Source: Clostridia bacterium (GTDB lineage Bacteria; Bacillota; Clostridia; Oscillospirales; Acutalibacteraceae). From it: a stretch of 64,000 nucleotides of DNA. Below, piece after piece: positions 13,255 to 62,242 of this stretch (within the stretch, counting starts at the first letter, position 1; each line of letters opens with the position of its first letter). Under the pieces are notes generated by a model, which did no database searches, was not told the DNA's origin, and worked only from the letters and a program-made list of their open reading frames with translations. The stretch lies in contig JAGALQ010000020.1 in NCBI GenBank assembly GCA_017625095.1, forward strand, positions 62,001-126,000, given 5' to 3'. The translations under genes were made by a program, and so were the position numbers.

Positions 13255-14349
13255 ATGAAACTTGGTATCGTAGGTTTGCCCAACGTAGGCAAGAGCACAC
13301 TTTTCAATGCAATTACAAACGCAGGTGCACAGTCGGCAAACTATGCCTTCTGCACAATAGAGCCCAACATCGGTGTTGTCAACGTGCCCGACAGCAGACT
13401 CGACAAGCTTGCCGAGATGTACAACCCCGACAAGTACACACCCGCAGTTATCGAATTTGTCGATATCGCAGGTCTTGTAAAGGGCGCATCAAAGGGCGAA
13501 GGTCTCGGCAACAAGTTCCTTGCAAACATCCGCGAGGTTGACGCAATTGTTCACGTTGTGCGCTGCTTTGTAAACGACGATATCATCCACGTTGACGGCA
13601 ACATCAACCCGATGCGTGATATTGAAACAATCAACCTTGAGCTCATCTTCTCCGATATCGAGATGATTGAGCGCCGTATCGACCGCACGGCAAAGGCAAT
13701 GAAGGGCGACAAGACCCTTGCTGCAGAGCTTGAATTCCTCAAGAGAGTTAAAGCAGAGCTCGAAGAAGGCACACCCGCACGTAATATCGAGTGTGACGAA
13801 AACGAAAAAGAGATTCTTTCACAGTCAACACTGCTCACAGCAAAGCCCGTTATCTACGCCTGCAATATGAGCGAAGAGGATTTTGTTGACGGTCTTGATA
13901 AGAACGAAGGCTACGTCAAGGTATGCGAAATTGCAAAAGCTGAAGGCGCCGAGGTACTTCCCATCTGTGCACAGCTTGAGGCTGAAATCGCTTCACTCGA
14001 CAGAGAAGAAAAAGAGATGTTCCTCGCCGACCTCGGCATTGAGCAGGGCGGTCTTGACCTCCTCATCCAGCGCAGCTACAACCTTCTCGGCCTTATCTCC
14101 TACCTCACAGCAGGTAAGCCCGAGGTAAGAGCCTGGACAATCAAGCGCGGCACAAAAGCACCGCAGGCTGCAGGCAAGATTCACAGCGACTTTGAAAGAG
14201 GATTTATCCGCGCAGAGGTTGTTGCATTTGACGACCTTATGGCTTGCGGCACAATGACAGCCGCAAAGGAAAAAGGCCTTGTCCGCAGTGAAGGCAAAGA
14301 ATATGTTATGCAGGACGGCGACATCGTTCTGTTCAGATTTAATGTTTAA
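13255..14349 (+). CDS. ychF: redox-regulated ATPase/GTPase YchF
   Basis: 364 residues, standard length. YchF (Ola1) is an Obg-like P-loop protein that prefers ATP and binds ribosomes. G1 is GLPNVGKST (7-15); G3 appears as the [20 protein letters not shown] segment; the NMSE segment near 203-206 replaces the usual NKxD and explains ATP preference. The C-terminal TGS domain ends with [10 protein letters not shown]. Start context is AGGTG with ATG 7 bases on. It heads a run with pth and mfd on the same strand with short gaps (31 and 87 bases). Confidence 0.97.
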
Positions 14350-52087: not shown

Positions 52088-52492
52088 CAAGCGGATTGGG
52101 CAGCTGCGGCGTCAGGGACTTATCACCCCTGCCGACGAGGAAAGTCCGGGCTTCACAGAGCAGGATAACGGCTAACGGCCGCCGAGGGTGACCTTAGGGA
52201 CAGTGCAACAGAGATATACCGCCTGCTTAGGGTAGTGAGAATGAATCTGAATATGTTTTTTGGGTGTGTTCGGATTTGTTCTCGCTACCCTGGTGGGTAA
52301 GGGTGGAAAGGCGAGGTAAGAGCTCACCGGCGTGCAGGAGACTGCACGGCCCTGTAAACCCTATCCGAAGCAACACCGACCGAAGTGGCTTGCTCGGCCT
52401 ATACTTCAACGGGTGGCTCGAGCACTGTGGCAACGCAGTGCCTAGAAAGATAGTTGCCTTAAACGACAGAACCCGGCTTACAGATCCGCTTG
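52088..52492 (+). ncRNA. rnpB: RNase P RNA, class A
   Basis: The catalytic RNA that trims tRNA 5' leaders. The ends pair as P1: CAAGCGGAT (52088-52096) with ATCCGCTTG (52484-52492). Conserved regions are GACGAGGAAAGTCCGGGC near the 5' end, the CAGTGCAACAGAGATA segment, GGGTGGAAAGGCGAGGTAAG, and the 3' ACAGAACCCGGCTTACAG part that pairs with the region near the 5' end. Presence of GGTAAGAG near the middle and the P15-type loop fit the ancestral (A) type. The RNA is followed at once by a TTTTTTCTC run. A long open frame beginning at 52264 crosses it but is not a gene start. Confidence 0.95.
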
Positions 52493-52524
52493 TTTTTTCT
52501 CAGAAACGGAAGGAAAGAATCACG

Positions 52525-59106: not shown

Positions 59107-60525
59107 TCAATCGTCCTGTTCGTCTTTATTGCGACGTCTGCCGAGTCTGTGCGGTTCATCTTCACCGTCGTCTTCACTTTCTTCAACGGGCAGTATTTCA
59201 ACCTTGAGCTTACCGATACGCTTGTCTTCAAGGTTGAGAATTGTGAAATGAAGATTTTCATAATCAACCTCGTTCATTTCACCGTCCTGAGGCAGATAAC
59301 CGAGCAGACTGATAACAAAGCCGCCGATTGTATCGTATTCATCCTCGGGCAGGTTTACACCGACGTGCTCATTCACCTCGTCAATAGAGGTTGTGCCGTC
59401 GACCGTGAACGTGGTTTCGTCTATAACGGAAAACTCTTCTTCCTCATTGTCATACTCATCCTGAATATTGCCGACAATTGATTCGACAAGGTCTTCAAGC
59501 GTGACAATACCTGCAGTGCCGCCATACTCGTCAACAACAACAGCCATCTGCACACGGCGTGCTGTCAACTCCTGGAAAAGGACACCGCATTTCATTGATT
59601 CGGGCACAAAGTAGGGCTCGCGCATAATATTGCGCAGGCTTTCCTGCTTGGGCATGCTGGAGCCGATGTAGCCGATAAGGTCCTTGATATAGACTATACC
59701 GATAATATTATCAAGACTTTCCTCATAAACGGGAATTCTTGAGTAACCCTCTTTTTCTGCAATTTCAACAACGTCCTGAATCGGGTCGTTGATTTCGACA
59801 GCGGAAACATCCGTACGGTGAGTCATAATATCACCTGCGTCGATATCGTCAAACTCGAAAATATTGTTGATCATTTCCTTCTGGGTGTCCTCAATAACGC
59901 CCTTTTCGCCGCCAACATCAACCATCATACGGATTTCTTCCTCGGTGACCTCCTCAGGCTCTGCATTCGGGTCGATGCCCATCAGTCTGAGTATTCCGTT
60001 CATAGAAAGTGAGAGCACCTTGACAAACGGCTTTGTAACCGTTGCGACAAAGGTGAGCACACCCGCAATGCGGAAAGAGATCTTCTCGGGGTTGTACATA
60101 GCAACACGCTTGGGCACAAGCTCACCGAGAACAAGTGAGAAATAGGACGTGATGAGCGTGATGACAACAAGGCTGAAGCCGTCAATCACACTTGAAGGGA
60201 TATTTGTCAGAATCGAAATTTTTTCCAGACCGCCCGAGAGCATATCAACGAAGCTCTGTGAAGCCGATGCAGATGACAAGAAGCCTGCAAGGGTTACACC
60301 AATCTGGATTGTGGAGAGAAATTTGCTGGGGTTACTTGTGAGTTTGAGAAGTTTTTTTGCCTTTTTGTTGCCCTCCTGTGCCTGCTTTTCAAGCTTGGCA
60401 TCGTTAAGGGAAATAATTGCTATTTCGCTCATCGCAAAAAACGCATTGACCAGTATGAGAACCAGCAGCAATACGATTTTCAGAATAAGAGAAGTTACAG
60501 CAGTATTAGGCCCGGGGTCGTCCAT
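59107..60525 (-). CDS. CNNM/CorC-HlyC family membrane protein with CBS domains
   Basis: 472 residues from the ATG at 60525. A CNNM (DUF21) transmembrane domain (about 1-190) has the FFAMSEIAIISLNDAKLE segment. Two CBS domains (about 200-330: IMTHRTDVSAVE, GYSRIPVYEES, IGIVYIKDL) and a CorC_HlyC domain (about 350-450) follow. Family members export or sense Mg2+ or Co2+ despite the name hemolysin. The tail (EDDGEDEPHRLGRRRNKDE in part) is charged. The frame is open to a TTG at 60546, but GAAAGGAG lies between, so ATG 60525 is the start. Confidence 0.9.
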   Translation of the reverse strand: MDDPGPNTAVTSLILKIVLLLVLILVNAFFAMSEIAIISLNDAKLEKQAQEGNKKAKKLLKLTSNPSKFLSTIQIGVTLAGFLSSASASQSFVDMLSGGLEKISILTNIPSSVIDGFSLVVITLITSYFSLVLGELVPKRVAMYNPEKISFRIAGVLTFVATVTKPFVKVLSLSMNGILRLMGIDPNAEPEEVTEEEIRMMVDVGGEKGVIEDTQKEMINNIFEFDDIDAGDIMTHRTDVSAVEINDPIQDVVEIAEKEGYSRIPVYEESLDNIIGIVYIKDLIGYIGSSMPKQESLRNIMREPYFVPESMKCGVLFQELTARRVQMAVVVDEYGGTAGIVTLEDLVESIVGNIQDEYDNEEEEFSVIDETTFTVDGTTSIDEVNEHVGVNLPEDEYDTIGGFVISLLGYLPQDGEMNEVDYENLHFTILNLEDKRIGKLKVEILPVEESEDDGEDEPHRLGRRRNKDEQDD

Positions 60526-60600
60526 TTTAGACTTTACTCCTTTCAAGTTGCGGTTTTACCGCTCTGTATAAATTATAATATTATTAAACATCTTAAATAT

Positions 60601-60830
60601 AAGATGGTTTAACCGGTTATCTTGCACCGAAGGTGCATATCGTGTTGCAAAGCAACATATCGAGCCTGAGGCATATCGAATCGAAGATATATCGAAAACA
60701 GAACTTGAATTATGTCGATATGTGCCTTACAGGCACCCGATATATTGAGTTATCACTCAATTCGATATAACCTCACTTGCGTGAGGTTTCGATATGGTAT
60801 AAATCTCTGCCGAGATTTATACCGAGCTGA
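60601..60830. repeat. mirror hairpin array with linker ATATCGA / TCGATAT
   Basis: Left half hairpins GCACC/GGTGC, GTTGC/GCAAC, GCC/GGC and ATC/GAT are separated by ATATCG(A). An asymmetric centre (AAAACAGAACTTG) follows. Right half hairpins GTGCC/GGCAC, TTGAGT/ACTCAA, AACCTCAC/GTGAGGTT and GGTATAAATCTC/GAGATTTATACC are separated by (T)CGATAT. The array begins right after the stop of the alanine racemase gene (minus strand) and fills the 286-base gap; no gene is seen in it. Confidence 0.85.
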
Positions 60831-60831
60831 T

Positions 60832-61983
60832 TCAGCCCTGCTGAATTATCTGTCCGCCTTTGAGATAAACGCGCGGAACACGCTTTGTGATATCGCAGAC
60901 ATACTCATAGTTAAAGCTGCCTGCTGTTTTTGCCAGCTCCTCAACGGTGAGTCTGACACCGCTGTCAACGCCGACAATCGTCACCTCATCACCCTGCTTT
61001 GCATCGGGTATATCCGTTACGTCAACCATAAACTGATCCATACAGACTCTGCCGATAACGGGAGCGCTGTGCCCTTTTATGAGCACCCTGCCCTTATTTG
61101 TCAGCAGACGCGGATAACAGTCGCCATAGCCGCAGGGTATTGTAGCGACAAGGGTTTCACGCTTTGCCATAAAAGCCGCACCGTAGCCGACGGTATCGCC
61201 GACAGACACCTTTTTGATATAGGCAATGTGGCTTTTAATCTGCATTGCGGGCGTTGTCGGAAGGTTTTCGAACTTGACCTCATCCGACGGATCAAGACCG
61301 TAGGTAACGATACCGCAGCGCACCATATCAAGACAGCCGCTGTCAAAATCCATCGTCGCAGCTGAGTTATAGATGTGCTTTATCGGTATGCTGACACCCG
61401 AATTTTCAATAAGCGATATAAATGAATCAAACTTTGCCCTCTGCTCGTTTGCAAAGCTCTTGTCTGCAAAATCGGCACAGGCAAGGTGAGAAAACGCACC
61501 CTTGATTTCGATGCCGGGCAGAGCCGCAATCTGTCTGATTTCTTCAAGGCTTTCATCACAGGGGATAAGACCTATGCGGTGCATACCTGTGTCTATCTTG
61601 ATGTGAACACCTGCTTTTTTGCCAAGCTTCATCGCAACGTCGGAAAGCTGCTTTGCGGTTTCAAACTGAAAAACCGTAAGGTCAATGCAGTTTTCAATCG
61701 CCGATTCAAACAGCTCGGGAAATGCATAGCTGAGCACAAGCACGGGCTTTCTGATTCCGTTCTCACGAAGCTGCACACCCTCTTCAACAGTTGCAACACC
61801 GTATGCGTAAGCACAGCTATCCTCAAGCTCCTTTGCAATCGGCACAGCACCGTGACCGTATGCATCAGCTTTGAGAATAACCATAACTTTAACATCTTCG
61901 CCGACCCTTTTCTGCACGGCTTCAATGTTTGAACGCACGGCATCAAGATCGATATAAGCACATACTCTGCTGTTAGTGTTCAT
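60832..61983 (-). CDS. alr: alanine racemase
   Basis: 383 residues. PLP enzyme making D-alanine for peptidoglycan. The PLP lysine is in VILKADAYGHG (near residue 38), and the GIVTYGLDP, GYGAAFMAKRETLVATIPCGYGDCYPR and CMDQFMVDVTD segments carry the other conserved residues, including the second catalytic tyrosine in GYGAAF. Length is normal. Its last codons with the stop form a TTCAG/CTGAA palindrome at the edge of the hairpin array. It is followed upstream and downstream by hairpin arrays. Confidence 0.96.
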   Translation of the reverse strand: MNTNSRVCAYIDLDAVRSNIEAVQKRVGEDVKVMVILKADAYGHGAVPIAKELEDSCAYAYGVATVEEGVQLRENGIRKPVLVLSYAFPELFESAIENCIDLTVFQFETAKQLSDVAMKLGKKAGVHIKIDTGMHRIGLIPCDESLEEIRQIAALPGIEIKGAFSHLACADFADKSFANEQRAKFDSFISLIENSGVSIPIKHIYNSAATMDFDSGCLDMVRCGIVTYGLDPSDEVKFENLPTTPAMQIKSHIAYIKKVSVGDTVGYGAAFMAKRETLVATIPCGYGDCYPRLLTNKGRVLIKGHSAPVIGRVCMDQFMVDVTDIPDAKQGDEVTIVGVDSGVRLTVEELAKTAGSFNYEYVCDITKRVPRVYLKGGQIIQQG

Positions 61984-62013
61984 AAAAAAATTATCACCTT
62001 AAAAGAATTTCTT

Positions 62014-62230
62014 GTTTTGCGTATGCAAAACATATCGAGCCGAAGGCATATCGAATCAAAGATATATCGAAAATCCGAAAGGATTTATATCGAGTAAAAA
62101 CGCAAAGCGGTTTTATCCGTAACTTTTGTCGATATGTGACCTTACGGTCACTCGATATATTTTGTTTCACAAAATCCGATATAATTTCAGTTTCTGAAAT
62201 TTCGATATAACCTCACTTGCGTTCGGTTGA
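62014..62230. repeat. mirror hairpin array with linker ATATCGA / TCGATAT, second locus
   Basis: Left half hairpins GTTTTGC/GCAAAAC, GCC/GGC, ATC/GAT and AAATCC/GGATTT are separated by ATATCGA; the apex is TAAAAACGC/GCGGTTTTA. Right half hairpins GTGACC/GGTCAC, ATTTTG/CAAAAT, AATTTCAG/CTGAAATT and AACCTCAC/GTTCGGTT are separated by TCGATAT or CCGATAT. It has the same plan as 60601-60830, with different stems and the same last hairpin. It lies between alr and metY. Confidence 0.85.
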
Positions 62231-62242
62231 GGAGCAATCCGT

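Follow-up and report, generated by a model that had tools for sequence, protein, structure and literature searches.

A hairpin array in a Clostridia genome belongs to a dispersed repeat family that is related to Gut-1 RNA and co-occurs with IVP/S23 genes

The array at positions 60601-60830 of the window (the whole 64,000-nucleotide stretch of contig C17 that was analysed) is a copy, with no gene of its own, from a family of hairpin-array repeats that is related to Gut-1 RNA. Its identity as a dispersed, Gut-1-like and IVP-linked repeat is very likely. We propose that the array represents a dispersed mobile repeat in non-autonomous, gene-less form, assisted by IVP and recognised as structured single strands, and we give this reading a probability of roughly 55%. 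Gut-1 RNA itself is already known; it was published in 2010 and is unexplained. New here are the polarity of the GNA/GNNA loops, the stop-codon position at the end of the element with the first hairpin (h1), and the co-occurrence of Gut-1 arrays with IVP genes. The basic unit consists of one short linker word and one mini-hairpin, the loop of which is mostly GNA or GNNA on one strand; the units of the second half have opposite polarity. The features of the array and its surroundings, as read from the sequence, are as follows.

59107-60546, minus strand: open frame of CNNM/CorC-like type, same direction as alr; NCBIfam matches strong, below cut-offs
60623-60637, plus strand: hairpin A, TGCACC-GAA-GGTGCA
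60637-60642, plus strand: linker ATATCG (as a 7-mer, variant ATATCGT)
60643-60657, plus strand: hairpin B, (T)GTTGC-AAA-GCAAC(A)
60657-60663, plus strand: linker ATATCGA
60664-60672, plus strand: hairpin C, GCC-TGA-GGC, 3-bp stem
60673-60679, plus strand: linker ATATCGA
60680-60688, plus strand: hairpin D, ATC-GAA-GAT, 3-bp stem
60689-60695, plus strand: linker ATATCGA, final one of the left half
60696-60714, no strand: 19-nt spacer separating the half arrays
60715-60721, minus strand: linker TCGATAT, opening the right half
60722-60736, minus strand: hairpin E, GTGCCT-TAC-AGGCAC
60737-60743, minus strand: linker variant CCGATAT
60744-60761, minus strand: hairpin F, ATTGAGT-TATC-ACTCAAT, minus-strand loop GATA
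60762-60768, minus strand: linker TCGATAT
60769-60788, minus strand: hairpin G, AACCTCAC-TTGC-GTGAGGTT, minus-strand loop GCAA
60789-60795, minus strand: linker TCGATAT
60796-60823, minus strand: hairpin H, GGTATAAATCTC-TGCC-GAGATTTATACC
60832-61983, minus strand: alanine racemase gene alr (TIGR00492), stop codon about 36 nt from the last linker of the array
62013-62235, no strand: second gene-less array copy, between alr and the O-acetylhomoserine sulfhydrylase gene (TIGR01326)

The initial annotation described an array of hairpins joined by a repeated linker and proposed shuffled sequence and folding as checks. Both checks bore it out. The array contained 8 linker 6-mers (shuffle mean 0.51, maximum 3), 6 hairpins with a stem of at least 5 (mean 0.57, maximum 4) and a total stem of 45 bp (mean 8.8, maximum 29), and each of these values was reached by 0 of 1000 dinucleotide shuffles. 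The fold z-scores of 60580-60850 against shuffles were -9.1 for the plus strand and -8.5 for the minus strand. The linkers had been given as ATATCGA on the left and its reverse complement on the right; the halves are complementary, but two linkers are variants (ATATCGT at 60637 and CCGATAT at 60737). The units had been called perfect small palindromes, and the hairpins were confirmed, but two of them have stems of 3 bp only. The array is not a CRISPR, as had been said, for its constant word has 6-7 bases and its inserts are palindromes. Nor is it a plain or intrinsic terminator, because it consists of eight hairpins joined by linkers and not of a single G+C-rich stem with a T-run.

The total stem length of the second copy, at the opposite end of alr, was reached by 1 of 1000 shuffles. 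ATATCGA occurred 29 times in the 64-kb window against 6.3 expected, with some occurrences inside coding regions. A cluster of five linker words at 13461 falls inside a 364-aa open frame and was taken as chance. No ATTTCA linker pairs were found in the window. The sole Rfam match in the window above its gathering score was RNase P RNA class A (RF00010) at 52088-52496, with 265.6 bits. A match to Chlorobi-1 at 60769-60788 covers one hairpin only and was also taken as chance.

Many dispersed copies exist besides the window array. BLAST matched the array at 13 places in its own genome (G000) and in 7 of 19 genomes including its own, all within one genus. The pattern ATATCGAN{7,30}ATATCGA was present at 24 places in the own genome, and the reversed pattern at 0. 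The search of related genomes suggested by the initial annotation gave a positive result: a triple-linker pattern was found in 99 of the 245 genomes of the order, although low counts per genome are often coding chance. At least 8 matches were found in 27 genomes (counted from the table), with the highest numbers in G031 (28+24), G217 (28+21), G021 (18+27), G000 (18+17) and G154 (15+15). The reversed control matched in 8 of 245 genomes, with a maximum of 4 matches. A scan of named genomes gave at least 119 loci; among the matches listed, 21 were hairpin arrays as judged by eye, 19 of them in gut Clostridia-type MAGs and 2 in Akkermansia MAGs. The Akkermansia arrays (L194 1350-2090 and L132 4710-4960) have the linker GATATCG, and one of them surrounds an IVP gene, which sits between inverted arrays.

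Copies at separate places in the same genome were 92% alike over about 220-230 bp (L072/L073 and L079/L080). No very recent jump was seen, the dispersed same-genome copies being at most about 92-93% alike, and no target-site duplication was found at the array copies. Three tandem element copies and a partial fourth were observed in L071 (2020-2655), where neighbouring stretches are about 92% alike. Comparison of elements agreed with the earlier statement that the stems differ between copies and yet keep pairing. A swapped-arm stem test is partly circular, as the best hairpin was chosen first, and shows only that stems differ between elements.

Elements usually have a divergent plan, with an outer hairpin, three to four CGATAT-hairpin units, a hairpin of GCGC type, a centre, and three to four ATATCG-hairpin units; the centre often has GGGATTTATATC at its end. 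The fold z-score of the usual element is -9.8 as DNA and -7.6 as RNA. The mirror-symmetric plan reported for the window array is regular, but its convergent order is not the usual order of the family and looks composite. The same convergent order is found at the junction of two copies where elements stand in tandem (L066, L069, L070 and L071), and L062 has the same composite order. We therefore infer that the window array is the second half of one copy joined to the first half of the next. Hairpin H would then combine the centre arm of the usual element with an h1 arm, as in L062.

The centre and the 3' arm of h1 share at least 6 bases in 58% of 53 elements, compared with 16% when mispaired; in the other 42% they share fewer than 6. 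The h1 arm and the centre are altered together in L305 and L306, and they mismatch in L074, L079 and L080. The commonest seventh linker base is complementary between the halves in 41 of 53 elements (G/C 25, T/A 16). The linkers had been expected to pair across the element as a ladder, with covariation rung by rung. This nested register was not supported, as nested partners fitted at 0.76 and non-nested ones at 0.75, and no covariation support was obtained (permutation p = 0.40, 18 mixed elements).

The loops have a strong polarity. We collected 216 distinct linker-hairpin-linker units with a stem of at least 4 and read them in ATATCG polarity. GNA or GNNA loops were present in 132 units, and the reverse form in 2. 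For triloops, 68 of 112 were GNA and 2 were TNC; for tetraloops, 64 of 85 were GNNA and none was TNNC. A C-G pair closed 188 of the 216 hairpins. Tandem G.A mismatches occurred in 47 of 374 units, and the T.C form in 0 of 374. DNA mini-hairpins that have GNA or GNNA loops and G-C pairs have been described as extraordinarily stable (PMC4686876). Because the halves have opposite polarity, each strand has the favoured fold in one half only, which argues for recognition as single-stranded DNA, short of proof.

The initial annotation knew no named element with this plan, but the closest named relative of the array is Gut-1 RNA (RF01706). Like the ATATCG arrays, it has three hairpins joined by a constant linker, although its linker is GUGAAAU, unlike that of the ATATCG family. 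Gut-1 as described is 77 nt, about half an element. The Gut-1 loci that were printed in full have the layout of the ATATCG elements, including the centre repeat and the tandem G.A hairpin. The minus strand of the window at 60614-60681 matched the full model (1-77) with three consecutive hairpins and a constant linker, at 22.2 bits, below the 50-bit gathering cut-off. Sister ATATCG arrays scored 50.8 bits (L306, above the cut-off), 49.7 bits (L188) and 43.7 bits (L305). At E ≤ 0.001, Gut-1 matches were found in 31 of 59 genomes of the order, in 25 of them above the cut-off. There were up to 48 copies per genome and 17 in the window's own genome. Among 14 control genomes, one (E. coli) had a match, which was below the cut-off. 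The listing of Weinberg et al. 2010 (PMC2864571) gives Gut-1 as certainly RNA, from human gut samples only, and without a role. No mention of Gut-1 RNA beyond that description was found in a literature search that largely lacked subscription papers.

The elements occupy a defined position behind genes. There were 42 oriented elements, of which 37 had enough flank on the h1 side and 40 at the other end. On the h1 side, 28 of 37 elements had a gene stop codon 10-60 nt ahead of the linker (range 15-59), and at the other end 8 of 40 did (p = 1e-6 between the two ends). This test superseded an earlier one based on open frames, in which 19 of 39 cases were unclear. In 13 of 26 Gut-1 loci (the best locus per genome), a tRNA or tmRNA on the same strand ended 31-43 nt before the match. 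In all eight of these 13 loci examined, a T-run hairpin fills the gap, so the match probably lies beyond the transcript end.

These positions bear on the main rival explanation, which is also the published reading of Gut-1. Here the array would be a structured non-coding RNA, or an element of the 3' untranslated region, that is co-transcribed with the upstream gene, folds and acts in RNA stability or processing. It stays the main rival because the orientation of the arrays behind genes, with the stop codons at the h1 end, is fixed, which would also fit an RNA function. The tRNA/tmRNA genes before Gut-1, the listing of Gut-1 as certainly RNA and the stable RNA folds also speak for it. We nevertheless consider it unlikely. 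One transcript would have the favoured loops and the G.A pairs in just one half, 26 of the 64 GNNA loops are not GNRA, and the eight tRNA/tmRNA-linked matches that follow a T-run hairpin are probably outside the transcript.

Occupied and empty sites were both observed. At the site between the genes for uracil-DNA glycosylase and a zinc-type permease, two genomes (G006 and G001) have almost no gap, and the others have four kinds of occupant. An array with an IVP gene is present in G010, G002 and G000, a heptamer inverted repeat in G005, and a DUF559 gene (PF04480) with hairpins in G004 and G008. In these last two genomes (L314 and L313, 2154-2474), the hairpins of the DUF559 gene are of CCTCTCC type, and the gene stands at the site where sister species have the array and IVP. 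Other species of the genus had plain heptamer inverted repeats (L234-L237 and L312) at the same intergenic sites. At the alr locus of G010 (L232), arrays with the linker AAATCATG/CATGATTT flank alr on both sides, where the window has ATATCG arrays, and a core of about 80 nt looks alike in both.

Genomes with Gut-1 mostly carry an IVP gene. PF05635 (IVP) had 45 matches in 13 of 19 genomes, including the window's own. Over 59 genomes, in which related genomes are not independent, an IVP gene was present in 28 of 31 genomes with Gut-1 and in 6 of 28 without (p = 6e-8). With one genome per family, the numbers were 13 of 15 and 4 of 11 (p = 0.013). For ATATCG arrays (at least 3 matches), they were 12 of 13 and 22 of 46 (p = 0.004). 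The IVP match was below the family cut-off in two of the 34 IVP genomes (G043 and G069). The three Gut-1 genomes without an IVP match were G025, G036 and G038 (93, 77 and 90% complete). DUF559 and RVT_1 co-occurred with neither Gut-1 (p = 1 and p = 0.57, respectively) nor ATATCG arrays in the 59 genomes.

At E ≤ 0.01, Gut-1 was found in 14 of the 40 IVP loci scanned, and 13 of these matches were within 350 bp of the IVP match. Eight of the 13 were upstream of IVP on the same strand, at 112-174 bp. When 150-bp flanks were compared with mispaired flanks, 16 of 45 IVP loci had complementary repeated flanks at p ≤ 0.05 and 10 at p ≤ 0.01, these p-values reusing the same loci; 12 of 57 IVP loci were left out, being cut by contig ends. 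Control flanks were complementary for uracil-DNA glycosylase in 0 of 9 loci and for alr in 3 of 20; these three loci, in G000, G002 and G010, have arrays on their flanks. A first, strict k-mer test, which was later replaced, found shared repeated words in a minority of 30 IVP loci. DUF559 was also considered as the partner. It shares the site and has complementary flanks of its own (9 of 24 loci at p ≤ 0.05 with 150 bp and 5 of 24 with 300 bp, 6 of 30 loci being dropped), but it was rejected because it did not co-occur with Gut-1 and 0 of 20 DUF559 loci contained Gut-1.

The IVP tree, from which 2 of 40 proteins lacking the motif used to find the frame were dropped, had two main groups. In the flanks examined, clade I had mostly plain heptamers and clade II had hairpin arrays. 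The mean number of GNA-type hairpins in the flanks was 3.2 for clade II and 0.5 for clade I (p = 9e-5), and several clade II loci had none (e.g. L275-L277). The Gut-1 label was mildly clustered on the tree, with 8 changes against a shuffled mean of 11.5 (12 of 500 shuffles were as low). In the clade I row L255, the Gut-1 match lies beyond a tRNA. The IVP protein of G010 matched TIGR02436 and PDB 2rld.

On C17, about 30 kb past the window, an IVP gene (155881-156177) lies directly behind an array, and about 1 kb beyond it, past another open frame, there is a remnant half array. The window stretch of C17 itself had no PF05635 match, and most array copies have no IVP gene alongside. G004, G005 and G008 have IVP genes yet no BLAST match to the window array.

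In the mechanism that we propose, the four-helix-bundle protein IVP/S23 (TIGR02436) would bind the hairpin-linker units in single-stranded form and promote the movement of copies with and without the gene, in the way that a RAYT transposase serves REP/REPIN repeats. Host enzymes would do the cutting and joining; to our knowledge, no catalytic centre of IVP is known. Mobilisation of the array repeats by IVP, taken by itself, has slightly less than an even chance. More tentatively, strand-polar DNA mini-hairpin arrays might form a new class of mobile element in which IVP/S23 proteins are the trans-acting factors, the linker is an address code by which protein lineages are matched to array families, and the rRNA intervening sequence is one special landing site; this we regard as possible but doubtful. 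By eye, the linker families ATATCGA, ATTTCAC, ATTTACC, ATTTAGC and ATATAAC fit ATWTNNN in the favoured polarity, and AAATCATG of G010 and AATTCAT of L270 fall outside it.

The arrays could instead be barriers behind genes of the REP/BIME kind, which protect mRNA, support terminators or serve as topoisomerase sites, with no living mobility and with IVP as a mere companion. The position behind gene ends and the regular hairpins kept in many species would suit such a role. It is quite unlikely, given the genome-level link with IVP, which is absent for DUF559 and RVT_1, and the other linker word found at the same two alr sites in the sister species G010. Fold-back DNA synthesis on stable GNA turns, which would make the hairpins and keep them perfect with no selection for function, would account for stems that are perfect yet vary in sequence, for the polarity of the loops and for the reappearance of the h1 arm in the centre. 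The order of slots and the linker words are, however, conserved across families of the order, and we think this explanation very unlikely. Movement as RNA in trans by a group II intron or DGR-type reverse transcriptase, with IVP acting like Avd, is highly improbable: the arrays adjoin terminator-like hairpins, as group IIC introns do, and IVP is related to the DGR accessory protein Avd, but RVT_1 (PF00078) is not associated with Gut-1 and had no match in several array-rich, near-complete genomes (G014, which is 98% complete with 33 Gut-1 matches, and G058, G053, G054, G035 and G000).

An IVP-assisted mobile repeat thus remains our preferred reading of the array. The results suggest that two loose ends, Gut-1 and IVP/S23, are parts of one system, that the Gut-1 model covers about half of an element, and that the relevant fold of the arrays may be single-stranded DNA. 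REP/REPIN repeats with RAYT are dispersed small palindromes in inverted sets, few of them beside the gene, that co-occur with one gene family. The arrays resemble this description in being dispersed inverted palindromes of which few copies are gene-adjacent, and in co-occurring with a single gene family. Unlike REP/REPIN, one array element has several different hairpins, and the associated protein is PF05635 and not a Y1 transposase. The heptamer repeats of Beggiatoaceae and cyanobacteria (TAACTGA; PMC4679880) also have a seven-base unit, are intergenic, occur in distant phyla and have no known mechanism. They are described as plain direct repeats that, in the main genome of that study, for the most part directly precede start codons, and the terms S23, 23S and intervening are all absent from the main text of that paper.

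The 23S rRNA intervening sequences with S23/IVP are another known system. Their function and mobility were called unclear in PMC4990558, which also describes tandem heptamers before the S23p ORF in the Coxiella intervening sequence. In our literature search, which had the same limited access, IVP, 23S rRNA and inverted repeats appeared together only in a UCYN-A paper, in unrelated passages. The same protein family (PF05635, TIGR02436) adjoins some array copies, and the intervening sequences have complementary ends, as the array elements do. The intervening sequences sit in 23S rRNA, whereas the array copies are intergenic, between protein genes; the window copies are without an IVP/S23 ORF, unlike the IVP-bearing intervening sequences, and the ends of the arrays are themselves hairpin arrays. 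Through its co-occurrence with the arrays, the puzzling IVP protein gains a possible partner, and what it does and how intervening sequences spread become questions of binding and mobility.
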